The translations under genes were made by a program, and so were the position numbers. Under the pieces are notes generated by a model, which saw only the letters and a list, made by a program, of their open reading frames with translations, ran no database searches and was not told the origin of the DNA. DNA of 64,000 nucleotides from Lytechinus variegatus (lineage: Eukaryota > Echinodermata > Echinoidea > Temnopleuroida > Toxopneustidae): positions 44,672,701 to 44,736,700 of the forward strand of contig NC_054746.1 of assembly GCF_018143015.1 (NCBI RefSeq), written 5' to 3'. Positions 17,170 through 61,884 of the stretch are shown one piece after another (position 1 is the first letter of the stretch; every line of letters starts with the position of its first letter).

Positions 17170-17750
17170 AGAATGAAACCATTGGAACAAGATAGCTTGT
17201 GTGAAAACAGAAAAATCAAAGAAACAGATCAACAAAAGTTTGAGAAAAATCAGACAAATAATGAGAAAGTTATGAGCATTTGAATATTGCAATCACTAAT
17301 GTTATGGAGAAAGCAAATTGGCAATGCGACAAAGATGTGTGATGTCACTTGTGAACAACTCTCCCCATTACTTTTGTATATATTTCACTTGAATTGCCTC
17401 TTTTATCACATCTATCCATAGATCATGTGTTCTTTCTACATGAGGGCATGTATTTGTAATACATATTTTTTAAGAATACATCATGGATAAAAAAATTGTA
17501 TCATAAGAAAAAGCAAAAAGAGACATTTTGAGGGTATTTTATAGTCCACCAAAGGGAAAGTTGTTCATCAGTGACACACATCCTTGTCGCATTGCCAATG
17601 GGAGGATCTCCATAGCATTAGTGATTGCAATATTTAAATGCTCATAACTCTCTCATTAGTTGTCTGATTTTTCTCAAACTTTCTTTATTCTTATCCTTTG
17701 ATTTTTCTGTTTCTACACAAGCCTATTTGTTCCAAAGGTTTCATTCCCCT
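17170..17750. mobile_element. PiggyBac-like non-autonomous element, GAATGAAACC family, copy 1
   Basis: TTAA lies at 17166-17169 and 17751-17754. The ends AGAATGAAACC and GGTTTCATTCCCCT are inverted, and the inverted arms reach about 150 bp (GAGCATTTGAATATTGCAAT against ATTGCAATATTTAAATGCTC). No coding capacity. Copy 2 is at 56147. Confidence 0.8.
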
Positions 17751-18036: not shown

Positions 18037-19188
18037 TTGTTTCATGTGTGTTCACATCATCCACAATCTCATATATGAAAATACAGTGATACATGTTTAT
18101 TACATAAAGACAATATTACGTAAAGAAAATATTACATAATCTCTCATTAACAGAGCACACAAAGGTCTTGCAACATAAGCTTGAAGCTTGAGTCATTACA
18201 AAACCATTATTTTACGCTAACCAGAAAAAAAAAAAAAACTGATGAAAGGGTATAGATGAATACAGGTACATGTATATACAATATTTACAAAGAAGTATAC
18301 AGAGATGACACAAGAATAGAAAGGAGGGTACCCCAATTTATATAAGAATATATGCATAATTTGTCAAGCAAATACAACGACATGAACTATCTTCGAAGAA
18401 AACATTATATGCCTACATTTTCATCATAGTTTCGAGATGAGCATGCTCTTAACTGCCTTCTTAAAGGAATATGTTTTACGTGAATTGCGAATACTTTGCG
18501 GTAAAGAATTCCAAATATCTGGACCATTATGCCTTATCGACTTATGGGCTAATGCGGTGAGAGGATTGTTTAAGTGTATATTAGATGCCTGTCTTGTGTA
18601 GTGTGAGTGAACTGCACTATTCGTTTGAAACATAGAAGAGACCGGCAGGAGTCCTGCGTTATATCGAAACATGAATATGGCAGTTTGAAGAAAATGTATG
18701 TCGTCAACTTTCAAACACTTTAGTTTTACAAACAGAGGATTTGTGTGGTCTCTAAAACCAGATCGAGTACATATTCGAATAGCTTTCTTTTGCAGAAGAA
18801 GAATATTATTTGTCAAACCCTTAGCTGTTGCCCACAGAATATTGCAGTATGAAATGTAAGGTAAAACAAGAGTATTGTATAGCATCAATAATATATTGGT
18901 GGCAACGTAATATCTAACTTTGTACAACACACCGATATTTCGAGAGATTGGTGCACTGATGTGATTCACTTGGTCTTTCCAATTAAGTTTTTCATTGATA
19001 TATACACCAAGGAACTTCGTACATGCTTTTCTTTCAATTGGGGTGCCGTTTAAGGAAGTGATGTTATCGATAACCTCTTTATCGCTAGTCTTATCGATAA
19101 TCGCATGTTTTTTGCCACTAAGGATATCGATTACCTTTTTCTCATGTCGATAATACCTGAAAATCTGAGAACACTTCATAGCCTGCAA
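18001..19188 (-). mobile_element. LINE 3' fragment: C-terminal part of a reverse transcriptase, with 3' tail
   Basis: A 254-residue minus-strand frame (18424-19188) carries typical reverse transcriptase C-terminal text of Jockey/CR1-type LINEs: FLGVYINEKLNWKDQV, TLVLPYISYCNILWA, LLQKKAIRI and GPDIWNSLPQSIRNS. The catalytic YxDD half is missing, so it is 5'-truncated. Downstream on the minus strand about 380 bp of 3' UTR end in a (TAAA)n run at 18001-18045, the usual 3' tail. The frame is undisrupted over 254 codons, so the copy is fairly young. It abuts another LINE in opposite orientation near 19190. Confidence 0.85.
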
Positions 19189-19189
19189 T

Positions 19190-20580
19190 GTACTTTGAAT
19201 AATGTGCCTTCATCTGGACCCTGCCCAATTTCTCCTAGCCATATCTACCACCTTGTGGATGTCCTTACTAAGCTTAGTCCTTACGCTCTTCATGCACACG
19301 CAGATACATGTAGACCTCAGTCTGTATCAACAGCTCTGCTGACACACTTTTCTAAAGCTTTTGACCTTGTTGACCATTCAATTGCAATTAGAAAATTGGT
19401 CAACATGGGAATTGCTCTATCACTTATAGCGTGGATTTCTGACTTTCTCTCCAATTGGCAACAAGTGAGGTACAAACCGAACGTTTGCATCAAACCGAAC
19501 GTTTGCATCAAACTGCAATACATAGATTTCCAATTATATGGGAAAGTATGCCCTCACATATCAAAGATGAAATTGTATCTGGAAACATCTCAAAAGTTCT
19601 GAACCTCCTTCGTCGTGAAATTCTTTGTGTTTTTTTTAATAATTAGATGTCTGATTTATAAATATTTCTTTCTATAATGTTTAATTTATTATTTTCCCAT
19701 TGACAAATTTCAACTAAAGAGCAAGTTTATTCATAATTTATACACTAAATTTAATCCGGCCTATTTCAGCCTCAACATCATGTCATTTGATCTCTCTTAT
19801 ATGGTTTTATCAATTCTTATTGTCCTATATCCCATTATTTATGGTAGATGCAATATTATTTACAATTTTAAATTTACGATTGCTTTAATGTTTGATGCTT
19901 ATCATTCTAATGCTTGTAGATACATAATGATGTGATTGGGGAGGTATTGTGGGGGTTGACTTGAGGTGACAAAGTCACATGAATGACCATTGTATTTTGC
20001 CGATTCTAAATATCTTCATCTTATTCTTATGTTCACCATTACTGTCATGACCTGGATGGGGTTGGGAGGTTTGGGGAGGAAGACCTGTGGGTTATGGCTA
20101 TTAAGTTAGCCTTTTCCATACCCAGGCAGCCTCTCCAACTCTCATCCAGGTCTTATTTTCTCTATCATGTACAAGTTTGATTGATCTTGTCTTTGATCTG
20201 TTGTATTCTTTGTCTTTTGAATGCCAAATAAAATAATAATAATAATAATAAAGGTGTTCTCTCTGAACCTTGTTATCTCAACTCAGGTATACCTCATGGG
20301 ACAAAGCTGGGCCCTGTGGTGTTTTCTGCTATGATCAATGATACATGAAGACGACACATTTGCGAGTACTTAGCAACATACGCTGTTTCAAATATGTCGA
20401 CGACTTGACACTGAATGAAAGTCGCATGTCTTCTATGCCATCTCAACTCCAATCAGCTCTGAATGAATTACACCAATGGGCGAAGTTGAATAACATGCGA
20501 CTTAACCCCAAGAAATGTGCGACAATGGACATCAGCATTGCGAGAGTTTGCTGTCCCCTGGGCCATGATATAACTACATC
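19190..20580 (+). mobile_element. LINE reverse transcriptase fragment, broken by a nested insertion
   Basis: Plus strand. Residues HFSKAFDLVDHS and WISDFLSNWQQVRYK before 19476 and SGIPHGTKLGPVVFSAMIND then FKYVDDLTLNE after 20250 are successive reverse transcriptase motifs (YVDD is the active site). A frame change separates the last two. The element is cut by a second LINE tail at about 19477-20250, and a TTAA element starts at 20585. Dead copy. Confidence 0.8.
19477..20250 (+). mobile_element. LINE 3' end nested inside another LINE
   Basis: It begins after GTACAAA of the host LINE and includes FPIIWESMPSHIKDEIV, the usual last conserved block of LINE reverse transcriptases. About 600 bp of 3' UTR then end in AATAAAATAATAATAATAATA. 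An 18-bp tandem duplication (ACCGAACGTTTGCATCAA twice) lies at its 5' edge. Confidence 0.7.
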
Positions 20581-23030: not shown

Positions 23031-23474
23031 TAGCCTGGAGGCGTCTGGGAGTAAAAAACATTTACATTGTGGGCTTACCCCCCAATGACACCTGGAAGTG
23101 GATCCTATTTATCTCTGTGTAGGGATGAGATTCCCACGGTCAAAGTAAGGCTAAATCAACACTTGTCCGTTACGTTTGGAGAGCTACCAACTTAGATTTT
23201 AAAAATACTTGAATCGGCCGATAAATATCATGAATCGTAAAATACATTTTTCGGTCAAAAAATATCATAACACATGCTAAATAAATGGTTTGGGCCCACT
23301 TACGTTAATTTGGGCTCCAAACCTAACGGACAAGTGTTGATTTAGCCTTACTTTGACCGTGGGAATCTCATCCCTACACAGAGATACATGGGATCCACTA
23401 CCAGGCGTCATTGGGGAGTAAGCCTACGAAGTAAATGTTTTTTATTCCCCAGACGCCTCAAGGAGTCCAGGCTA
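23031..23474. mobile_element. Fold-back element with 8-bp target duplication
   Basis: Two arms of about 150 bp (TAGCCTGGA at the left, TCCAGGCTA at the right) are near-complementary, separated by about 150 bp. The 8-bp CTCAAGAC lies directly outside at both ends (23023-23030 and 23475-23482). The size of the duplication fits hAT-type insertion. Confidence 0.85.
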
Positions 23475-27080: not shown

Positions 27081-27245
27081 GAGGTGCCGTGGCCGAGTGG
27101 TCTATGCGCCTGGCTGTACGTGGAAAGTCCGAGATTCGACTCGGCCGCTGCATCTATTATATGCCCGTGAGCAGAGCATTAATGCTCTTTTATCCTGCAT
27201 TCAAATAAATGGAAATGCTATATGCATTGGCTAGGTGTGCACTTG
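27081..27245 (+). mobile_element. tRNA-headed SINE
   Basis: GTGGCCGAGTGGTCTATGCG is an A box much like tRNA-Leu, and GAGATTCGACTCGG is a B box with a T arm lacking one loop base. The acceptor stem does not close, so it is not a working tRNA. The body has CATTAATGCTCTTTTATCC and ends in AAATGGAAATGCTA. Confidence 0.65.
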
Positions 27246-28804: not shown

Positions 28805-28877
28805 CGCCCAATGTGGGGCTCGAACCCACGACCCTGGGATTAAGAGTCCCATGCTCTACCGACTGAGCTAACCGGGC
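28805..28877 (-). tRNA. tRNA-Lys (anticodon CTT)
   Basis: The minus strand folds into a perfect 73-nt cloverleaf: acceptor stem GCCCGGT with ATTGGGC (two G-T pairs), D stem GCTC/GAGC, anticodon stem TGGGA/TCCCA with loop CTCTTAA, and T stem GTGGG/CCCAC with loop TTCGAGC. The discriminator is G. The A and B boxes are intact, and a run of nine T follows four bases downstream, a good RNA polymerase III terminator. No intron. It looks functional and is not followed by a SINE-like body. Confidence 0.96.
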
Positions 28878-39785: not shown

Positions 39786-42700
39786 TCATCTTGTTTTTAG
39801 AAACTTCTGAATTTTAGGGAAAAGTCTCAGGGCATTTTCTCTGGTGATTTGCCGAACTGTCTCCACTGACACACCTTTGACCTCTGCGATGTAGTCACAT
39901 GATATATGAATGTTACTGGGTTCATTCCGTTTCTGAGTGAAAAAAGAACAAAAATTGATATTCATGATCGCTTCCTGTACACTACCTCATAAAAAAATAT
40001 TCACAAAAGAAATGGGCTTCATAGAAATGGTGTGGATAAGTGGATAGAATATGAATAATGAAGTCCCAAGGTTCAAACCCCATCAGAGCAAAACAACTGA
40101 TATTTTAGACAGTGGAATGACTCTGGCAGTCTTACCAATATTGTGCAATCAAATATAGCACAATGCTGACTTTGATAACAATTTAGATGAGTCATTTTTT
40201 CCACAAAGAAATGAAAGAACCTCTAAACATCCATTTGGCAATAAAATCATAAGTTTGTTGACCTCAAATGACCTTTGACCTTTTCTCAGTAATCTGAAAT
40301 TACATTCGTCTATTTGCTAATACATGATAACCATTAAACAAAAGTTTTATGGAATAGGGACTAACATTTGCAAAATTATCTTTAATATTTAAAATCATAA
40401 TTCTGGCTATGATTTCAATGTTGATACCCCAACATGATCAAAGTTTATTGACACTAAGGCCTTTGACTTTTATGACCTGAAACTCATGCAAGTTGATCAG
40501 TGATACTTTAGAACCCATATGTCCAAGTTCATGAAATAGGTCCATATGATTATATTTCAAAACTTGACCTCGATTAAGTTTTCAATGTTGACCATGCCAC
40601 AGCTACTGTTGGAAAAGAGGCATCCAGACAGTAAAGAAACATATTATCTGAGTTTTGCTTTGGTCAAGCTCCTGGCCCGCTGAAAAACTGTAAAATATTT
40701 TTCAGAGGACTTTAAATTTTGAATTTTAATGTAATACTTGATAAGAACTTTGAAAAGAGACTTACTTGTTTTTCTGCAGACAATGCTGGGGAATCAGTCT
40801 CCAATAGAATCCTCTCAAGAGGGAGCTGTTTAACTAGCTTTTGCTTCTTGTCCATGTGTGTGTGAGAGAGTGAGAGAAATGGGGGCGGGGGGTAAGGAAA
40901 GATCGTGAGAGAGCAAGAGGGGGAGAGAGGGAGATATAATTGGAAAGAGAGAGAGAGGAAGCAAAGAGTAAAACTAAATATTTCAACCCAGAGGCAGATT
41001 TAGGATTTTCCAAAAGGCGGGGGGGAGCACATTTTTTCGAGGAAAAATTTGAAAAGCAAAAAAAGGTCTTCACTTTCAAAACGGGGGAGAACACTTTGGC
41101 GGTATTTTTAGATTACAAATTTTAATTCTGCCTCTCAAAGGGGGGGATCACAGGCTGACTTTGCCCCCCGGATCCGTCAGTGTTTCAACTGTTTCTGAAG
41201 TTAAAACTTGTACCAAAATAGTAAGACCAAACAACAATAATAGACAAATAAAAACCTAGAGGTATAATTATGGTCTATTAGGTCATATCAGTCATTCCTG
41301 TGATCATATGCTTCATTATTGAACTCTTTTTTTATATCAAACCATGGACCCTACTATCTAAAATCATATAAAAACAACAACTCTCTAGGTTGAAAAATTT
41401 AGAATATAAGTTTGTATCAATAAAGATATTTATGTACTGGTTTTAGATTTTGGCACAGTAGATTAATCAATTACATTCCAGCCAAAGTAGCTCTGATATT
41501 CTTTAATGATTTTCATATTGGAATGTCATACCTTTTTTAAAGCATTACCTGTTTAGTATTAATGTCAATAATCATTCTGTAATGAAGCAAAGACAGCATA
41601 AAAGCAAAATTCACTTACTTGTCCACTCCTAACTATAGAGGGCGGTATGGAGAAGTAATAGCCATATTGTATACCCAGCATAGCTACAGACGGCTTACCA
41701 TCAAACGCGTGAAGCAATACATTCTCAGCACCTGCCATCAAGAAACAGAAATCTGAATAATATTTCCATAAATATAAAACAATCTGTATGACTAATATTA
41801 ATTCTCTATAAATGAAACAAACATTCAAACATATTTCTTATCACTACTTTTGGTGTAGTAGGTATCATTTTCCTCAAAAAAATAAAAAAATTCTTTCTTT
41901 ATTTAATTAAAGAAATGGACATGTCAACAAGAAGCCAAATATTTTTTTTATTAATAACAGATCTTTGATGTAAAATATGTGCCTCCAAACTGCCAGATCT
42001 GAAATTTATTTTTCACATTTAACTTCTACAATTTTCATACTCTTAAATTAATGATCTAATCAGGTCATCAATTATACATGCATACACAAAATGAGTTTAA
42101 ACCTGCTTTTTTTATTATCTAGTATACAATTGAGACAACTAACATTTTACGTTTTTATGATGGACATTCATGACTTTGAAACCTCAAATTTAATTAGATC
42201 AATTAACCTTATCATAAATATGTGTTTGAATTCAAGATTTCCAATACTGCTGAAGATGATATTCAGAACTCAGGAGAAACTACAAATAATGTGTGGAATC
42301 TTGCCACTTCAAATACCCCTTGCAAGTTTCAGTAAAGCATTTGTTGACATTTTGCGAACAACCTCACAATAAGACCCCAACTTCTGAAATCCTCTCAGGA
42401 TATGGTTAAAATAAATAATGTCCCTTTGGGTAAATAAGAATAACTTACAGAATTCCAAATCATTTCATCTTTTGTGTAAAAAGGATGCTAATACTAATTG
42501 AGAAGAAAATACCTTGTTCATGAAGCAAAGCAATAGTTGGTCTGCCTGCAGATCTAGAATGAACATTTCTGTCAACAAAAAATACAAGAGTACTATGAGA
42601 TAAAAGAAATATTTATATTTTTAATAATTTCCTACCATTCCCTATCACTCTCACAATATGTGCACTTCGTTCCATCTTAAATCCAGATAATGCAACGCTT

Positions 42701-46664: not shown

Positions 46665-46920
46665 CGTTCATCATCTACCGGGGATTCACCGTTTTTTTAC
46701 AAGAGCCTCTATCAATATTAGAAAATTATAGCTTTCATATTTTGTTATATTATGTAGAATTTAGGATTTTTGAATTATTTCAAATATCTAAAAATTAAAA
46801 AAAATAATTTGAAAAAATGAATTATGAATTATTTTAAATTCAAACTTCAAAATTTATTACTATATGTTAAATATAAGTACCCGTATGTATATGATGCGGT
46901 GTGGCGCGCAAAGATTGAAA
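46665..46920. promoter_or_regulatory. Divergent TATDN3/NSL1 promoter region
   Basis: This is the 256-bp gap between the two start codons. It is very AT-rich in its middle, with no TATA box that is clearly placed. A GGCGCGCAAA word at 46903-46912 (reverse TTTGCGCGCC) matches the E2F consensus TTTSSCGC and sits 8 bp before the NSL1 start. E2F control would suit a mitotic gene; this is inference. Confidence 0.6.
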
Positions 46921-49900
46921 ATGGATTCTGAAGATGCTGCCAAGGCTTCGCGGAAGATAAGCTGCTGCAGTAAACAGGCAGTTTCAACAGCAATCACAAC
47001 ACTTTTGTCGTCAGTTAACCAGCACATAGACAAAACAAAGTACAATGAGGAATTTAGGGAAGGATTAAAGCAAAGATTTAAGGAGGTACGTATGCATGTA
47101 TCCCTCTTTGCGAGCAGAATGCAGAGGACACTTTCCTTCCGGGCCGTTACTCGTTAGTCGGATCAAGACACGTCCGACGTCGGAGTTCCGCCGGCGAAGC
47201 GGGATAGATCTCCGATGGGTGCATCACAAGCCGCCGTGCCCACGAAAGGCCCGGCGCACGCAACACTTCGCGCGAATTTAAGAATACTTTTTAACAACGT
47301 TAGCTTTAATAAAATCAATTCCTTCTACAAAACTTACCAAAGCCTGTGAAGTCAATTTCATGTATGGTATATATATAGGTGGTCCTAAGCTGCGTGGGTC
47401 CTACTTACATGTAAGCTACGCACCACTCATTGCGCATACAGTTTTTATGGCAAATGCACACTCTGCAGTAGAAGCGCATGGCCAATAAATATTGGAGACT
47501 GTCTCCAATGTGGGAGATTATCTCCAATATCAGAGACTTTTGTAAAGAATTTGGGTATCCAATTTCAGAGACAGTCTCCAGTTTCGGAGTCTAATCTTTG
47601 TTTACATTTGCGGCAAAAGGATTACCTTGGCGGCAAATAAAAATGTGATAAGCAGATTCCTCATGAAAATTTACACCTTTTCACCATCTACTTTTGTTTT
47701 GATAAGGATTTTTGTTGTCATCCACACACAAAACAAATGGGCTTCTGGCGCTGGCCTCAGCGAGACAAAATTTTGGGTGGAAAAAATTGTGTTTTTGTTG
47801 GTGTTGTTTCTTTTGTCCTTTTGCAAAGCAAAAAAAAAAAAAAGCCGCCAAGGTAATCCTTTTGACCGTGCGCCTCTACTGCTCTGTGTGGAACTTAACT
47901 GTGACTGCAGAGTGACGAATGATTCCTATTCAATTTTTTCTACAGAGGCTGCAGTAAATCTCTAAATGCAGAGAAACCAACAATTGTTTGGAATTTGGAG
48001 TTATATTCGCTTAAATTTTATTTTATCCTATAGGGATAATATGAATATATTTTAGAAATTGAGGCACAGGAAATATAGCATGGCAAGTCGAGTGCGTAGC
48101 TTTAGGACCCCTTCTACATCAGGTGGCGAAATCAAGAGGTGTTCGGAAAACACGGCAGGATTTTCGTATACTATTAGTGAGTTTTTGCGATATTTTCTTC
48201 TTGGTTAATGATCTTTAGAATGTTTGCCACAAATTAGTGAAAGATATTAGAATTGGGATAGTTTTTATTGTTTGAAAACAAAGTGCGTAGCTTTAGGTCC
48301 CCCCATCATACCGGTAAGGCGGTAATTGAATATCCCTAAAAATAAAATAGCTTCATTTATTTAAATTTTTATTATTTTAGAAATGCCACGCCCGCGACAT
48401 GGTTCTTTTTTCAGAAAAAGTACGCTAGATATTTAAAAATTTATTCATGATGATGGTGGTCCCAAGTCTGCGCACCTAACGATTTGAAATAAGATTTAAT
48501 GTGAATTTATTTTTATTTCATAAAATCTTTCATTTGAATAATGTTCCTTACATGTACAAGCTACATCATACTTAACTATGATTCATACTAGACATTAGTG
48601 TGCCAAATATCTCATAAAAATTTGAAAGAAATATATGATTTTCTTGAAAAAACCTTGGGCAGTCATTTTCAGGTACGATCAAGGTACGATAATAAAGTAA
48701 TACGCCAGTGGCGGACTGTACACCAGACTGGAACAAGAGGGGAAAAAATGGAAGAACTCTACCCCATCATATGTCTGCGCAGTGCGCACCCATTCACTTT
48801 GCACACGATTCTGTTATTTTGATGAGAAAGGCTGCATTTTGAGGCCATCACATGAAATGCCCTAAATTCATTATTTTTCCACCATTTTGAGTTGGATTTT
48901 TTAATAAATATATGTTTATGTGTTGCATGTGTAAAGTTTGTTGTGTATCTTCTTTTATGAGAATTGCGCAGATACGTATGTGCAAAGACAAGGGGGACTG
49001 CGCAGACTCGAAGTTGGGGGAACTTTTCCCATAACACTTAAAACAGATAGGCAAATTAGAGCCTATTCTCAGGCGATGGTTCGTATAGGCTCCACTTCAG
49101 TACAGCTACCCTCCGTTCCACCTAGGCTATGATCCTATCCGAACCCTTGGGGGACAAATACTTGCTCTCAAAACCAGTCACAAAATGTGGCACTTTATAT
49201 TTAGATATAAGGTCAAGACCACCCCAGCAAAATGTTGATTTGTATAGAGAAAAATCAAATATGTACAACTCATTGACCTTCGAATGAGTCAGTCGATGAT
49301 GTCCACTCACTATTTCTTTTGTTTTTTATTGTTTGACTTATACAATATTTCATTTTTTACAGATTTGACCAGAGGGACCGACTTGACTGAATCATATAGT
49401 ATTAAACAATTCTAATTCCAGATGTTCATGGACGAATCAATCATTGCTTCACTTGACAATGAGGAGAAAATGAGAATATTTCATATTTCATGTAATAAAA
49501 TACAAAAGAAATAGTGAGTGGATGACGTCGTCAGTCTCGTCATTTGCATACCGACCAGGATGTGTGTATAAGTGTTTTGTGAAATTAAGCAGAACTTTAA
49601 AATATCGTAACTTTCTTATTTTACATGTACATCCGATTTTGATGAAGTTTTCAGTGTTTTGCTTGTTGGATTTTTCTCTTTTTATTCAAATTAACTTTTT
49701 GTTGGGGTGGACTTGTCCTTTTAGGTAACAAAGGCAACATAAGACCAAAACATACATTCAGCTTACTCTACAGTGACTAAACTTTCTATCGAACACAGAC
49801 TCACTCCTTGCCCTTTCTTGTAAACGTCTCAAAATCAGTGTTTTGAAGCTGGTTTGCAATACCCACACATATTAATTCAGCGCCAAATCCAAAATGCAAA

Positions 49901-52900
49901 CGGAAATTGTGCACGACCTGCATGCAGTTCATTTGCGTTTGTGATCGCCATTTTTTATTCGGCGGTGAATTAATTTGTGTGGGGTACTAGATTCTAAATT
50001 CATGTGCAATTCCTCTGATTGTTTGATAAAATGTAGACTACTAATAAATGCAATGAATTAAAAAACATACTTTTTAGATTATATTTGCTGACGATAACAC
50101 TTTTTGGAAAACATTCAAAGCGATGACTAATTGAACAAAAAATAGAAAATTCTATGTGCCTTGAACAAAGCCAGCAGTGCGAGCCAATGATAACTGGGCG
50201 TTGTGGCGTGCGCCTGTAATCCAAGCTGTGGGGAAGTTACAAATTGATGCAGAGGGTCGAGGTTTGAGCCCTGGTCATGTCTTTCGGATGGTGACGTTAA
50301 AAGTCAGTCCCAGACGTAAATAATCATACATGTATCTGATTGATACACGTCTGACAAAACTCAAATACACACACACACACTGTTTGTCAACAAATGTTCC
50401 ATCAAAGTCTTTACAATAAAAATATTGGACACTAGCTTTGCCGACTTCGTGTAACGCTTTGCATCGATTTAAGTGTAAAAGAGTTTTAGTGCCTTTTCTT
50501 TCACTTGTAATGTCTTAGATATGAAGATAAATCGCACGCCCTCTTTATACGAAAAATTCAGAAAAGGCAAGAAAGCTCCATAATTAGTCAACGAGAAGAA
50601 AAATCAGTAGCAATGCCACACTGGCCGCAGAACACTAGACTTGCGCATCAGACAACAGAAGAATTCCCAATTGAGGCCTCTCTATTTGCTTTTATTTTAG
50701 GAATAAAACATGGTACATGTATATAAAACATTTAATTGCAAATAATACAGAAGAAAACTTACAATTTTTGTTATTTCAATGCTAATTCGTCAAACCATGG
50801 ACATTTTCAGTAAAAAATTTTTTTTTCCATGACGTGCAGCATTGGGCATATCATCACGCTGCAGAGTGTTTAGGTAAAACTAAAACATGGCTTTAATTCC
50901 CAGGTTTGCAGGGTCAACAAAAATCAAGCATTGCGAGGGACGTGGACTGTGATATAGGCTACAAGATGGCTAAGTTTGAACAAAGCTAAGATTTTTCCCC
51001 CAAAACTATATTTTTTCCCTATGATTTTCATTGAATTATTAAACTGAAAAAGAAGGAGTATTTTAGGCTAAATTTGATGTATCTTTGAGGGCTTACCACT
51101 TGAAACTGACCCCCTAGGAACATATTAAAACCATGTTTTTGAGTAGCTTGCAATGAAATGCTGTAATTTGTAATCCTGTACTTAAGTTGTTTTATTTGTG
51201 TGTATACATATAAGTCTTTGGGGGATGGTCTAGAATTATGGAGCGTTGTGGCCCAGTGGATTAGATTCAAGAATTTGAGGGTCATGGGTTTGAATCCCAG
51301 CCATGTATGATTCAATAGATCCATAATGTGCTGCACTCGACCAAGGTGAGCTTAATTGGTACCAATAGGAAATAATTCCTCAAAAAAAAAGCTGTAAGCA
51401 CTGGAATTGGTAGACTAGCTTAGCCGGGCTAATACAATGGTGCCTTGAGCACCTATAAACAAGGTGGATATGTGTGCTATAAAATGTGTGCCCAATATTA
51501 TTATGACTTGCATTATTGTTATTGAACTTCATTAATTATGTAGATTTATTCAAATCTAAAAATTCAAGCTCTTTTTTCTTTTGTTAAATCATTATTTGAT
51601 CCAAAAAAAAATCATAGAAATGACTGGCCAGAAAACTACTTGACGAAGCCAGGAAAGATTTGCATAGACCCTACATTACTACAATAATCATGAATCAGTA
51701 TGAAAATTGACCATTCCAAGAAGACCGTAGGATGAGCAGGATATGGAAACCATCCTAATAAAGTATACCATACTTAACCAAAGAAGAGTGATCCAACAAG
51801 GGTTATGTTGAAGTAGATGACATATGGTGCCTGACTGTATTATGAATCATCAGTACCAAATGGCTGTGTGAATAGTTCAATTATTATATGTTGAGGATGT
51901 TGTAGTCATTTGTTTAATTTGTTTTGTTTTTTTTTCTTATTCAGATTTATGAAAACACAGTCCATGACAATATTACAGTAGACGGTCAAACATGGAGTCA
52001 GTCATTGGAAGATGGGAATACAACCAAAGGTAAATTCATACTCAGACCGTGTAACACCATCAAGGCTAAAACCACTTGGTCTACTAGCAGATGGTCTAAT
52101 TCTCAGACCATGTGACACTATCAAGGCTAAAACCACTTGGTCTACTAGCAGATGGTCTAATTCTCAGACCGTGTGACACTATCAAGGCTAAAACCACTTG
52201 GTCTACTAGCAGATGGTCTAATTCTCAGACCGTGTGACACCATCAAGGCTAAAACCACTTGGTCTACTAGCAGATGGACTAATTCTCAGACCCTGTGACA
52301 CCATCAAGGCTAAAACCACTTGGTCTACTAACAGATGGACTAATTCTCAGACCGTATGACACCATCAAGGCTAAAACCACTTGGTCTACTAGCAGATGGA
52401 CTAATTCTCAGACCGTGTGACACCATCAAGGCTAAAACCACTTGGTCTACTAGCAGATGGACTAATTCTCAGACCGTGTGACACCATCAAGGCTAAAACC
52501 ACTTGGTCTACTAGCAGATGGACTAATTCTCAGACCGTGTGACACCATCAAGGCTAAAACCACTTGGTCTACCAGCAGATGGTCTCATTCTCAGACTGTG
52601 TGACACCATCAAGGCTAAACTAATTTGGTCTAATTATTTCTGGTCCAACCATTATTATTTGGTCTGTCAGTATAATGGCTAATGCCAATATGATCTAATT
52701 TACACTAATGTATGTATAAGTATTATTTTGCATTTGAAAAATGAAAATTTGTTTTCAAAAACAGTTTTTAATCATAAAGACTAAATGCTAGACCAAGTGG
52801 ATACTAGTTGGAATAGGTATAGCCTAACTAGAAACTAGGCAAAATGATGAATGTGTTGAATTGCAATTAGACTAAATGGTTAGTAGACAAACTGGTTATC

Positions 52901-55900
52901 AGCAAACAAGGATTAGACCATGTGTGATGAGAACAATGCAGAGAAGAAAAGTGGGACCAAGTGGAACTACCTACCGTATTCACATGAGAAAAATATTGAA
53001 GTCTAGATTAATCAGATAACTATAGATACCCACAGTTCTTATATAATACATTTTTTATGAAAATGCTGCAGGTTTCATAAAAATAAGATTTTCTCCACAT
53101 TCATTTACACAACATCTAATGCAGTTAAGTTGACAATACTGCTTCTTTACCCAGAATGCTTTTTTCTCTTCATCTCTCAAAATACTGGGATTGTTTTTAA
53201 TGTTATATTAGCACCCCTGGGGTACAGGTAAGTATGGCTGCATAATATTACAATGATGACAATGAACAGCCAATATATCACATTATTGTGAACAATTGAC
53301 GTTTGAATGTAAAGGTACAAAAAAACTCACTGATGTCATAAAAATGTCATCCACAAGCTTCACCCCATCTCCACTCTGTTTTTAGCCTTAGCTGAAAATG
53401 TATTGTATCAACATTACTTGACAATGTTTGTGGTTATTACAGCTGGCAATGATCTAAACTGTGCAGCACTAATGTTCCAAATTTTCATTCTTGCAGATTA
53501 TGAAGCAGTAGATTTGGAACTAAAGAAAGAAGTTTCAACAAGAACACTTGAGTTAGATGAACTAATGGTGAAGACAACAGCTAAGAGAAGGACACACCCT
53601 ACCAAGGTTTCTCATGAGGTCACTAAGCGTATGAAGCATTTAAGACACGCAGTGGTAAGGAGAAGATTTAGGGGTGTTCTGGGTTCATTTAATGGTGGGA
53701 AAATAACTCAAGTATGATAAACAGATTGTTCAAGATTTGTGTGTTTTACATACACATACATGGTCAAGTGCAACCATGTGGTATTTTGTGCCTTTCACAG
53801 TAGAAGCCCTCTGATGTAAAATGGGGAAAGATTAAATTATTGTCCAGTAAACAATTTCTTTATGAGGGCTTGAATGATGTTGACATTGAAACTTCAATGA
53901 ATATCAATGTAGCTTTAAATACACATTGGGTGATTTCAGGTCTGGTGTTGGCATTTAAGTTTCTGTTGGAACTTGGATTGCTTCCCCCAGCTCCAAAATC
54001 TATTCTGAGTTTGTAAAACTGATCCAGATCACATTATTGACATATCAAAACTAAACTAGTGAGTGACTTTTTAAACCATTTTATGTGTGGTGTTACACTC
54101 GTGTATAAATGGACCTAACACCAATAGGTCAATACTGAACTTGAAATCACCCATTGTACAGCCTTACGTCCTAATAATAATATCGACTGGCTCTTCTTTC
54201 AGGAAACATCAAAGATGTTGCCCTTAACCCTAAGAAGACTGGGGGGGGGCTGATTCAGCCCCCCCCCCTCGACATTTTTCATGATAAATCCGCCGTGCTA
54301 AATTTCTTTACTGTGTCGACCGCTGACTTTTTACTTTCAAGTCTCGCGCAACTTTTGAGACCAAAATTGCAACCCCCGGGTATGTGGTTCCAAAATCACG
54401 CAACATTTCATAAGTGCATGCAGACCCAAAATTGCTCCAAAACATGAATTTGTGTACAAATCCAATGCAAATAGTGTTTTTAGCCAAAATTCATGAATGT
54501 ATCATTTTTCCTTTTACTGCTTGAAACCAATTTATTTTATCTTGTTTATGGTCAAAATAAAGTCTCAGACAATTTCCATTGAAAAAACAATAAAAAACAA
54601 AAAGTCAAAAAACAAAGAAATATATAAGAAATTTAGAAAGCAATAAAATGCATAAAAAAATAAATGTAATGTTGACATTTTTTTTAAATAAATTTGATCA
54701 GATGCCTATTAAGAGTATCTGAAACAAAAATCAACATTTTAAGGGCATTATTTTGTTAATTAGAGCAATTAACTTATGATTTTACACATAAATTAACATA
54801 ATTAATGAGCAATGAGATTTTTCGCAGAATTTGATATTATTTTTTTGAAGATTATGCCATGGGTAACGTGCATGCCAATTTTTGTTGCGATCGACGGCCG
54901 AGATCATAAGGGGGCTGAATCAGCCCCCCCCCCTTCCTGTCTTCTTAGGCATCGAAATAGCCCAGTCTATTTAGGGTTTAAAAACCATATTGCCCTTGTC
55001 GAAAGACTCGGGCCAGTATGATTCTGTTTCGGCTGACATATTTTGATGTTCCCCTCAAGGCCAGTCAATATGATATAATTATTTTTTCTTTTTTTTACGA
55101 AGAACTTTTCTTTAAGGTGAACTTCCCTTCTTAGTCTTATCCCCAAAAGAGCAGTATGTGAACATTCCACATCATTTTTTTACAGCTGATTTTGATGATT
55201 TAGAATCCATTGGCTCATTCAATTAATAACCAGTCTTTGTCTTTCCAGGAAAAATACAAACCAGTGATACAGCCAGTACAGATAAAAGATAAAGAGCTGC
55301 CTAAGCAAGGTAATTCTCCAATATTATATGATGTTACAATTATTACACATTAATATTCATATGTGGCAGTAAGATTTGGAAATTTATTCAATTCAATTAA
55401 AAAAAAGTATTGATAAGTACATATTGATTCATGATAGAGCAATTTCTATTCAAGTACTTCATGATTGAATATTGTTCTGAGAGATGCATTAAGTGATAAT
55501 CAGTCTCTTTTTAATGATCAGTAACAGCCATTTCAGTATACTTATCAAATGTCTATTTGAAATTTAGATGTCTCAAATTGTATTAACTATGGGGAAATTT
55601 TGTAAGATAGAGAAAATCTTGGCCAGTGCTTGAAAACAATATCTTTATCTAATGATTATTTCTTGTTATGGCAGTTTCTAATATGTTGGTGGGATTATAT
55701 GCTTGAAATCTCAAGCGTTTCATTCAAGAGTTCATTGGTTCTCAGCAGTTTTTTCAGTAGATAAGTTATCCATGTGACATGGATATTTTTCCCTCATGGA
55801 TTTTTTGAAAAATTATATGCGTACAATATTTGATTGAGCTGTTAACTAAGTTTTTGTTCACACAGTTCTTGATGAGGAATCCAAGCGACTTCAGGAAGCA

Positions 55901-57836
55901 GGATGTTCCATATCTGCTATATCACGGGTGAGCCAAATCATTACCTCTTGGGTTCATGTAAAACCAGGGAGGCATTGCAGAATGTGTGCAATTAAACACT
56001 ACTCCTAAAATCAATTACATCTTGGTTCTCAACCATTCAGAAGAGAACATTTGTGTTATTTAAATTTATTGACCAAATTCCGTCTACAACAGACCCCAAT
56101 TCTAATAAATATTTTTAATTTCATTTCAATACCGTTAATGACTTAAAGGAGAATGAAACCTTTGGAACAAGTTGGCTTGTGTCGTAACAGAAAAATCAAA
56201 GAATGATAACAAAGAAAGTTTGAGAAAAATCAGACAAATAATGAGAAAGTAATGAGCATTTGAATATTGCAGTAAATAATGCTATGGAGATCCTGCCATT
56301 GGCAATGCCACAAGGATGTGTGATGTCACATGTGAACAACTTTACCTTTGATCGACTATAAAATACCACCAAAATATCTGTTTTTGCTTTTTATTATGAT
56401 GATGCAACTCTTTATCCATGATGTATTCTTTAATAATCTGTATTACATGCTCTCCTATAGAAAGAACACATGATCTACTCATAGATGTGATAAAAGAGGC
56501 ATTTTAAGTGAAATATATACTAAAGTGATGAGGAGAGTTGTTCACAATTGACATCACACATCTTTGTTGCATTGCCAATGGGAGGATCTCCATAGCATTA
56601 GTGATTGCAATATTCAAATGCTCATAACTTTCTCATTATTTGTCTGATTTTTTCTCAAACTTTTGTTGATCTGTTTCTTTGATTTTTCTGTTTTCACACA
56701 AGCTATCTTGTTCCAAAGGTTTCATGCTCCTTTATATATTTTCTAGTAAGGGTGTGCCCAATTCATTCATTACTGATAAGGTTGAACACAGTCTTTTGAT
56801 GAACTGCACTTGCCCCAAATTCTGGAAACAAATTGATGTAATCCTAGTGATATTTGATAACCGTGGAATTAGACAAAGACTAAGTGGCTATCAACTGAAG
56901 AGAGGAAGAATTGAAGGGACAGTCAAGTTTTAGCAAGTGAAAATTATAATGTAATTAGAATGTCTATTGTACAGGATTCCACTTCATATTCCTTCATACT
57001 GTATTCAGATTATTACTTCCAAATCTGAAACTTTCTAGCTAAAAGTTTGCATAGCCCCATAAAAGAATGTTTGTGTTTAGTGCTATGTAACTTAGCAGAA
57101 TGTACAGGACATTTTGATTATTTTTTGCTGGTGATTCCAAAATCTTCTAGCGAACAGTAATCTATGCCATTACTATCTACACTTCCAAATCACTTTGCAG
57201 TTAGTCCTTCCATACTTCAATAAATCTGGTGACTAGGAGCTTGTAATGTTAAGCTATTGATAATGCTGTTGACTTGTATGCTTGATTCCATATGATGATC
57301 ATTGTATACAGTCTTAAAAATCATTCTTATTTTGGAGCTCAAATTTGTTGTCATGGGGTCCTGAACATCACTTATCTTGTGATTGATATTAATAGAAAAA
57401 CAATCTGAGAAATCACAAGGAATAGGGCTCATTGCAGAAAATAGAATTTTACATGGAATCCTTGATATTGAGAATCATTACCATGGTCATTTAACATTTA
57501 ATGTTCAATTTAGGGTTGACATCGTATCCTAAAATATTTTCACTATTCTGTTTTTATCAGGATCTGCCATTGTTGGAGGATAAGGCATCTCGATTGATTG
57601 AAGCAAGACAGCTGAGGTCATCAATGAAGAGTAACCGGATCTATAAGATCATCTCACAACCTCTGACGGATGAAAGCAAGATGGCTGCCTCTTTGACACC
57701 TCTACAGCACAGATTAGCCAATGAGACACCGTCCCCAATAAAGCAAACACCCAGACACAGTTTACGAGCCCTCAAGGTTCAAAGTCATCCAATTAATAAC
57801 AATTTCAAAGTTGAAGCTTCTGACAAATCAACCTGA
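46921..57836 (+). CDS. NSL1: NSL1, MIS12 kinetochore complex subunit (6 coding exons, 268 aa)
   Basis: Plus-strand exons: 46921-47085, 51945-52029, 53497-53654, 55249-55309, 55866-55927, 57561-57836. Junctions are GT-AG and phases agree, 807 nt including stop TGA. Seen: exon 2 reads YENTVHDNITVDGQTW, exon 3 contains LDELMVKTTAKRRTHPTKV, and exon 4 starts EKYKPVIQPVQIK. These line up with human NSL1 stretches (VQENISINGQAW, FDEIIVDIATKRKQYPRKI and QYHPVVHPL, from memory). Human NSL1 is 281 aa. Known: NSL1 is part of the four-subunit MIS12 complex, which links centromeric chromatin to KNL1 and the NDC80 complex at the outer kinetochore. Exons 3 to 5 look helical and charged, as expected of that rod. 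The C-terminal exon has several SP/TP sites (residues about 223-240), possible mitotic kinase targets (inference). The ATG at 46921 has A at -3 and G at +4; an in-frame ATG at 46864 would add 19 residues. Confidence 0.93.
47130..47280. promoter_or_regulatory. CpG-rich block at the start of NSL1 intron 1
   Basis: About 150 bp of GC- and CpG-rich sequence in an otherwise AT-rich region. It contains the palindrome TCCGACGTCGGA (47173-47184, CRE-like core) and TTCGCGCGAA (47267-47276, a palindromic E2F-like core). It lies 45 to 195 bp after exon 1, so it may be part of the shared promoter. Function is inferred from position and base content only. Confidence 0.4.
47457..47896. mobile_element. Fold-back element in NSL1 intron 1
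   Basis: CACACTCTGCAGTAGAAGCG at the left pairs with CGCCTCTACTGCTCTGTGTG at the right, and inside AAAAGGATTACCTTGGCGGC (47617) pairs with GCCGCCAAGGTAATCCTTTT (47843). Between them, on the left, lie small palindromes GGAGACTGTCTCC and GGAGATTATCTCC. No target duplication found. Confidence 0.6.
49211..49720. mobile_element. Inverted-repeat element in NSL1 intron 1
   Basis: GACCACCCCAGCAAAATGTT at the left is inverted relative to AACTTTTTGTTGGGGTGGAC at the right. Inside, both sides carry ATTTCTTTTGT and its inverse. A related partial copy is at 33890. Limits are approximate. Confidence 0.6.
50195..50390 (+). mobile_element. 7SL-RNA-like sequence heading a SINE-like repeat
   Basis: TGGGCGTTGTGGCGTGCGCC followed by TGTAATCCAAGCT matches the 5' Alu domain of human 7SL RNA (GGGCGCGGTGGCGCGTGCCTG then TAGTCCCAGCT, from memory) at 26 of 32 positions by hand alignment. 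About 30 bp later, GAGGGTCGAGGTTTGAGCCC matches the 7SL GAGGATCGCTTGAGTCC segment. After 50280 the text leaves 7SL (CTTTCGGATGGTGACGTTAAA) and ends near a CA repeat. A whole SRP RNA gene is excluded by this break. Confidence 0.6.
51240..51500 (+). mobile_element. tRNA-headed SINE in NSL1 intron 1
   Basis: GGAGCGTTGTGGCCCAGTGG carries the A box and GGTTTGAATCCCAGCC the B box. A body follows with CTCGACCAAGGTGAGCTTAA and TGTGTGCTATAAAA. The tail is ATTATTATG-like. It lies about 450 bp before exon 2. Confidence 0.75.
52041..52640. repeat. 61-bp minisatellite in NSL1 intron 2
   Basis: Units start at 52041, 52102, 52163, 52224, 52285, 52346, 52407, 52468, 52529 and 52590, exactly 61 bp apart. Each contains CTCAGACCGTGTGACACC, GGCTAAAACCACTTGGTCTA and CTAGCAGATGG. 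Units are nearly identical, with one shared variant (GGTCTAATT to GGACTAATT) in a run. The array begins 12 bp after the exon 2 donor. Looser GGTCTAATT words continue to about 52960. Confidence 0.95.
54229..54949. mobile_element. 721-bp inverted-repeat element with G-tract hairpin ends, NSL1 intron 3
   Basis: CCTAAGAAGAC at the left and GTCTTCTTAGG at the right are inverted. Just inside each end is GGGGGCTGATTCAGCCCCC or a close form, itself a palindrome. The middle is AT-rich and non-coding. No target duplication found. Confidence 0.75.
56147..56731. mobile_element. PiggyBac-like non-autonomous element, GAATGAAACC family, copy 2, NSL1 intron 5
   Basis: Left flank TTAA (56143-56146), right flank TTAT (one change). 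Ends AGGAGAATGAAACC and GGTTTCATGCTCCT. Matches the copy at 17170 along its length (CTTGTGT, ACAGAAAAATCAAAGA, GAGAAAAATCAGACAAATAA). Confidence 0.8.
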
Positions 57837-59763: not shown

Positions 59764-59777
59764 ACAGAATTTGAATG

Positions 59778-60051
59778 AGGTTATCTTTGCAGGTTTGTAT
59801 GGTGGAGTTTATGTGGAGGTTTACGGTTCACCATGTGAAATGTAAAGATGGTTTGAGTAGTAGCAGGATGTAGTAGTAGGTACTACTCAAACCATCGCTA
59901 CTCAAGCCATATTCAGCTCATCTCATCTAGTTTCCAGTCCTTTTCAGGACTTCACTCACTTTCAAGAAAGAATGCTTATTTCTTTTCATCCTATCTCGTA
60001 GCCTTAATTCCATCCCTTTACATTACACATGGTGAACCGGAAACCTCCACG
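59778..60051 (+). mobile_element. Insert with 14-bp direct repeats and a histone-type 3' signal
   Basis: ACAGAATTTGAATG lies on both sides (59764-59777 and 60052-60065). Inside, GTGGAGGTTTACGGTTCACC is inverted relative to GGTGAACCGGAAACCTCCAC at the right end, and GGTTTGAGTAGTAG pairs with CTACTCAAACC. AGTCCTTTTCAGGACT then TTCAAGAAAGA resemble a histone stem-loop and downstream element. Non-coding. Confidence 0.7.
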
Positions 60052-60065
60052 ACAGAATTTGAATG

Positions 60066-61678: not shown

Positions 61679-61691
61679 CAATAATCCATCT

Positions 61692-61851
61692 TCTGAAGGT
61701 TTCCATGGTGAAGAACAATAGTGTAGTAGGTTTCATTGTACATCATGTACCACCTGAGGACGACAAAAAAACACTTGTCAAAATGTCGAGATTGGGTGGT
61801 CCTTTTCAGGACCAACACTTGCCCAAGAAAGATACATGGTGTACAGTGAAA
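61692..61851 (+). mobile_element. Insert with 13-bp direct repeats and a histone-type 3' signal
   Basis: CAATAATCCATCT lies on both sides (61679-61691 and 61852-61864). Inside, GTTTCATTGTACATCATGTA is inverted relative to TACATGGTGTACAGTGAAAC. The stem-loop GGTCCTTTTCAGGACC (61798-61813) fits the histone consensus GGYYYT-THTH-ARRRCC, and CAAGAAAGA (61824-61832) equals the sea urchin histone downstream element. Non-coding. Confidence 0.7.
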
Positions 61852-61884
61852 CAATAATCCATCTCTACTGTCATCAGCCTTGTC

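Follow-up and report, generated by a model that had tools for sequence, protein, structure and literature searches.

Two related direct-repeat-flanked inserts carrying a histone-type stem-loop and downstream element in Lytechinus variegatus

How does a short insert without histone coding sequence come to carry both of the signals associated with histone mRNA 3' processing? According to two reports (PMC1924863, PMC5011920), animal histone pre-mRNAs bear a stem-loop together with a downstream element to which U7 binds, and a third (PMC7026596) places the cut site 4–5 nt after the stem-loop. The question was raised by an initial annotation of a 64,000-nucleotide stretch of Lytechinus variegatus DNA (the window), in which a 160-bp retroposon-like insert was described as holding the two signals. 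Here we analyze this insert (copy 1) together with a related second insert (copy 2), which lies 1.6 kb upstream and was absent from the initial annotation.

Copy 1 occupies positions 61692–61851 of the window on the plus strand and is bounded by exact direct repeats, the putative target-site duplications CAATAATCCATCT at 61679–61691 and 61852–61864, which agree at 13 of 13 positions. The 5' leader includes the block TGAAGGTTTCCATGGTGAAG (61694–61713). Downstream of it, the left arm of an enclosing helix (61730–61749) pairs in the predicted fold with a right arm at 61833–61852 at all 20 positions, two of them G-U, and the right arm ends on the base with which the right direct repeat starts. Enclosed by this helix, a histone-type stem-loop of six pairs, GGTCCTTTTCAGGACC, can be read directly at 61798–61813; 10 nt after it comes the histone-downstream-element-like CAAGAAAGA (61824–61832), which was both read directly and recovered by a pattern search. 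We take this 9-mer to be the sea urchin form of the downstream element. Thus the insert with its 13-bp direct repeats, its flanking inverted repeat and its two signals at 10 nt spacing was found as originally described. The predicted RNA fold of copy 1 is moderately stable (z -2.3, with 3 of 200 shuffles as stable), and the opposite strand folds about equally well (z -2.5, 2 of 200 shuffles).

Copy 2 spans 274 bp (59778–60051, plus strand) between exact 14-bp direct repeats, ACAGAATTTGAATG, at 59764–59777 and 60052–60065 (14/14). It has its own leader block, TGCAGGTTTGTATGGTGGAG (59788–59807), and an enclosing helix whose arms of 35 nt (59813–59847 and 60016–60050) are 94% complementary. The histone-type stem-loop of this insert, AGTCCTTTTCAGGACT, lies at 59936–59951 and closes with an A-T pair in place of the G-C pair of copy 1; CAAGAAAGA follows at 59963–59971, 11 nt 3' of the stem-loop. 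Both copies therefore hold a 16-nt stem-loop with six pairs and a four-base loop, and both hold the purine-rich CAAGAAAGA, at spacings of 10 and 11 nt. An extra internal hairpin of 16 pairs in copy 2 (59847–59896, arms 59847–59862 and 59881–59896) has no counterpart in the predicted fold of copy 1. The fold of copy 2 as a whole is far below its shuffles (z = -8.4), none of 200 being as stable. Two suggestions of the initial annotation, the retroposon-like nature of copy 1 and a small RNA family with histone-type ends, gain support from this second insert, with its own 14-bp direct repeats, both signals at 11 nt spacing, a like leader and an enclosing helix.

Among the protein-coding features of the window, an exon of an NSL1/Mis14-like kinetochore gene lies at 53334–53717 on the plus strand (Pfam Mis14, E 1.2e-5, above the cut-off). 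By eye, and with human NSL1 as the reference, the open reading frames at 46828–47157 and 57495–57836 look like the first and last exons of the same gene; neither has a Pfam match above the cut-off. TatD-DNase-like stretches are found on the minus strand at 40712–40999 and 41565–41837 (E 3.8e-5 and 0.026, below the curated cut-off). Human NSL1 and TATDN3 are neighbours, and the proximity of the NSL1-like and TatD-like sequences may reflect an old shared gene order. The window also contains a tRNA match of 67.8 bits at 28805–28877 on the minus strand.

To what extent could the signals have arisen by coincidence? The pattern of CTTTTCAG, 4–20 nt and then CAAGAAAGA occurs at two places in the 64-kb window and in none of 100 shuffles. 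Six-pair stem-loops followed by CAAGAAAGA at 6–16 nt likewise number two, against none in 40 Markov surrogates and an expectation of ~3e-5. When stem-loops with six Watson-Crick pairs and a fixed G-C second pair were counted alone on both strands, the window gave four and the surrogates (n=40) averaged 0.325 and never exceeded 2; the four are the two copies and a palindrome at 27173, which was counted once per strand. Against the Rfam model RF00032 (Histone3), copy 1 reached 16.2 bits (E 0.11) and copy 2 15.6 bits. These values are about half the gathering score of 34, so Rfam alone would not call the signals, and no Rfam family matched the inserts at its gathering score. Animal histone mRNAs have an A-rich 5' flank and an ACCA 3' flank around the stem-loop, and the stem-loop flanks of both copies have neither.

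It is very improbable that CTTTTCAG, which is also a good splice-acceptor motif, and a purine-rich stretch merely resemble histone signals in a sequence of other use. Such coincidences do arise elsewhere: a like 21-base pattern holding both signals was found in 16 stretches of prokaryote genomes, several of them alike, which we set aside as ordinary bacterial sequence by eye and in which neither leader nor arms were seen within ~40 nt on each side. However, a splice acceptor needs no complementary 5' stem half, yet six pairs form in both copies. The low joint expectation in the window, the absence of the combination from the surrogates and shuffles, and the existence of two related copies all argue against chance as well.

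If the signals are not accidental, they might still have come from a histone gene directly. The initial annotation had raised an uncleaved histone transcript as one possible origin, and a retroposed piece of a real uncleaved histone pre-mRNA, that is, a histone 3'-end pseudogene, would account for the presence of both signals at a histone-like distance from each other. We regard this origin as barely credible. As had been reported for copy 1, no histone text accompanies the signals: six frames of both copies contained none by eye, and tblastn across the window with H3 and H4 returned nothing at E<=1. Additionally, the copies have in common a leader and an enclosing helix that are not known from histone genes, and the discovery of copy 2 already weakened this reading.

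We also rejected coding function as the main explanation. An open reading frame starting with ATGGTG at 61705 in copy 1 runs for 50 codons through the signals into the direct repeat, and the corresponding frame of copy 2, starting with ATGGTG at 59799, has 24 codons and ends before the stem-loop. Where they cross the left arm, both have F-x-VHHV in common, which is probably a result of shared DNA; a tiny peptide is possible. For a 58-aa frame of copy 1, no Pfam family was matched up to E 1, and a search against the PDB gave one match (E 1.7), which we judged to be chance. Two further candidates were discarded: a U7 snRNA on the opposite strand, which is not among the Rfam matches and for which no Sm site is seen by eye, and weak matches to snoRNA, microRNA and other Rfam families, which lie far below gathering scores.

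How closely are the two inserts related? Their leaders TGAAGGTTTCCATGGTGAAG and TGCAGGTTTGTATGGTGGAG are identical at 16 of 20 positions, a score reached by none of 2000 mononucleotide shuffles. When the left arm is included, the score of 32 exceeds that of the best of 2000 such shuffles (31) and is matched by none of 2634 control windows on the plus strand. The similarity of the right arms was reached by 2 of 2000 mononucleotide shuffles, and the score of the signal block was equalled by none of 6370 control windows over both strands. Compared as whole inserts, the copies have a best local score of 39, a level that 1 of 1000 dinucleotide-shuffled versions of copy 1 also attained against copy 2. 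This kinship evidence rests on n=2 copies.

Conservation is uneven along the inserts. The interior, from left arm to stem-loop, aligns poorly between the copies and is of unequal length; stem-loop and CAAGAAAGA agree at 23 of 25 positions, compared with 43 of 60 in leader and arms (Fisher p 0.048). The two differing positions are both partners of one pair, and when these compensated closing-pair bases are omitted the signals are identical at 23 of 23 positions (p 0.002); both p values are post hoc and were obtained on an alignment of our own choosing. Such a pattern bears on whether the signals are there for a reason. It is possible, though we consider it unlikely, that they are neutral passengers: a retroposon ancestor would have captured a histone gene 3' end or have arisen from a rearranged histone gene, and the signals would have no present role and be common by descent only. 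The ancestor may have been recent enough for this, given that leader and arms still agree to the extent above; over all 25 signal positions the excess of conservation reaches p 0.048 only, and stem-loop and CAAGAAAGA form one short block that could be a gene-conversion tract. Nonetheless, the signals stayed nearly identical while the interior came to align poorly and to differ in length, and the pairing of the only two differing positions is a further point against mere descent.

The enclosing helix speaks to the same issue. Over 20 aligned columns, the arms of the two copies differ at 13 of 40 positions, and pairing within each copy is nonetheless 20/20 in copy 1 (two G-U) and 19/20 in copy 2. 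Both partners differ in five pairs and a single partner in three, one of which is the broken pair of copy 2; the remaining twelve pairs are unchanged. Cross-pairing of arms between copies gives just 14/20 and 17/20. None of 14748 simulations of unconstrained drift from a perfect hairpin (12–18 differences) kept both copies so well paired. A two-sided change is likewise seen in the stem-loop, which closes with G-C in copy 1 and with A-T in copy 2. Arm pairing could instead persist through DNA copying of one arm onto the other; this would less readily explain the change in the stem-loop. In the predicted folds of both copies CAAGAAAGA is partly paired and, as a matter of speculation, such pairing might hinder cutting.

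We next consider how the inserts came to be where they are. In copy 1 the right direct repeat follows directly on the right arm, one base being common to both, and in copy 2 it begins 1 nt further on. On the left, in contrast, direct repeat and arm are kept apart by a leader of 38 nt (copy 1) or 35 nt (copy 2). Taken with the long duplications and the like leaders, this asymmetry fits reverse transcription of an RNA that has a defined 5' part better than it fits a terminal-inverted-repeat transposon. The 3' ends of the two inserts read GTGAAA and CCTCCACG, and neither has a poly(A) or simple-repeat tail; tailless retroposons are known. The same geometry makes it improbable that the inserts are foldback or MITE-like hairpin DNA elements moved by a transposase, with histone-like signals in the loop. 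Such an element should have long inverted arms, and those of the inserts pair at 20/20 in copy 1 and reach 94% complementarity across 35 bp in copy 2. But the left arms are not terminal, lying 38 and 35 nt inward, part of the leader is alike in both copies, and the direct repeats of 13–14 bp are longer than those of most DNA transposons.

Direct repeats of at least 13 bp at distances of 80–400 bp are not scarce in the window: 58 pairs were counted, of which a tandem array at 52 kb accounts for 41, and those of the inserts were recognized in part by their exactness. What gives the latter weight is how they fit the ends of two related elements, and not rarity within the window. The tandem array itself extends over 52054–52620 with a unit of ~61 bp. 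Long inverted repeats with arms of 76–135 bp and loops of 133–296 bp lie at 23047–23449, 56225–56652 and 17235–17682, and by eye the latter two have sequence in common.

Are there further copies? A scan for paired repeats turned up copy 2 as well as a weak candidate at 14.7 kb; copy 1 escaped it because the arms of that copy lack an exact 10-base seed. Scans of the window for leader and arms, allowing up to 4 mismatches, yielded nothing more that could convincingly be called a copy, whether it carried the signals or lacked them. Eight weak arm-like matches were found in addition to the four true arms; they pair with the sequence that follows at 14–16 of 20 positions at best, compared with 19 and 20 in the copies. 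There was also one extra leader-like match with 4 mismatches at 42146, read by eye. Outside the window, viral contigs scanned for the arms, for both signals and for an internal motif yielded none, and six matches to an 18-mer of the leader were rejected, as their flanks (~40 nt on each side) look unrelated to the family. Within the window, both signals are thus present in 2 of 2 recognized copies, which is not an unbiased count since copy 2 was detected by motif search. The idea that other copies keep both signals accordingly held for one other copy, and that copy had been found through the motifs themselves.

Our preferred explanation, in which our confidence is slightly past the halfway mark, is that the inserts are retroposed copies of one structured non-coding RNA family whose sources kept histone-type signals. 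Such an RNA would open with a leader of ~35–40 nt, after which a long helix begins with its left arm. A variable interior would lead to a histone-type stem-loop, with CAAGAAAGA 10–11 nt beyond it, and the helix would close with its right arm at the 3' end or close to it. Uncleaved RNA would have been reverse-transcribed into new sites by the machinery of another element, which would leave target duplications of 13–14 bp without a poly(A) tail. What may be remnants of a LINE-type reverse transcriptase at 18424–19602 (RVT_1, E 0.0062, below the cut-off) are a possible source of the machinery.

Both the RNA intermediate and the constraint on the sources are inferred. The exactness of the direct repeats suggests that the insertions are recent, so the differences between the copies would have arisen mostly between their sources. 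The source genes would then have diverged much in sequence but retained stem-loop and downstream element within their enclosing helix, and retention of these parts while much else changed points to a functional RNA family that is occasionally retroposed. Most likely, the signals were retained because some of the source RNA would be treated in the way that histone pre-mRNA is, with SLBP on the stem-loop and U7 snRNP on CAAGAAAGA, in the service of stability, localization or 3'-end formation. The copies extend beyond the downstream element through the right arm, so their templates were RNAs that U7 had not cut. We count it against our preferred explanation that U7-cleaved RNA could not have yielded these copies.

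More tentatively, and with some doubt on our part, a mobile, hairpin-framed non-coding RNA family may carry working histone pre-mRNA signals and use SLBP and U7 snRNP, so that the S-phase machinery of the histone locus makes, stabilizes or places the RNA while uncleaved molecules jump. If true, U7 would have a client outside the histones, and an RNA-processing signal would couple a retroposon to the cell cycle. U7-guided 3'-end formation is generally considered almost exclusive to replication-dependent histone genes. A family of mobile RNAs keeping both signals would be an unusual client; it could explain the spread or origin of histone-type ends outside histone genes, and it would tie retroposition to S phase. 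No paper among the matches listed, as far as the excerpted text goes, describes a mobile element with a histone stem-loop and downstream element, and the family may already bear a name in Repbase or Dfam.

These inserts can be set beside four known systems. Like the 3' end of a replication-dependent histone pre-mRNA, they have a six-pair stem with a UUUC loop and a G-C second pair, followed by the purine-rich CAAGAAAGA 10–11 nt downstream and no poly(A). Unlike it, they were found without a histone open reading frame and have other flanks, they score 15.6–16.2 bits against RF00032 (gathering 34), and their signals lie within a longer helix and within direct-repeat-flanked inserts. With SINEs and other short non-autonomous retroposons they share a size of 160–274 bp, direct repeats of 13–14 bp, like 5' leaders, more than one copy and no recognized protein of their own. 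They differ from SINEs in that they have no poly(A) or simple tail and, at gathering score, match neither a tRNA nor any other Rfam family, and in having a long enclosing hairpin and histone-type signals. MITEs and foldback elements resemble them in inverted-repeat arms and small size; in the inserts, however, the left arm lies 35–38 nt from the target duplication and only the right end adjoins it, the leader is alike in both, and the direct repeats are long. Metazoan retrozymes, as described in one report (PMC7229834), are non-LTR elements that carry a hammerhead in a small structured RNA, spread as non-autonomous retroelements and make target duplications of more than 4 bp. No hammerhead was found among the Rfam matches of our copies up to E 10, and the inserts are single units, unlike the retrozymes, with no tandem array. 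Nevertheless, the retrozymes offer the same combination that we propose for the inserts, a small structured RNA that behaves as a non-autonomous retroelement and leaves target duplications of more than 4 bp.
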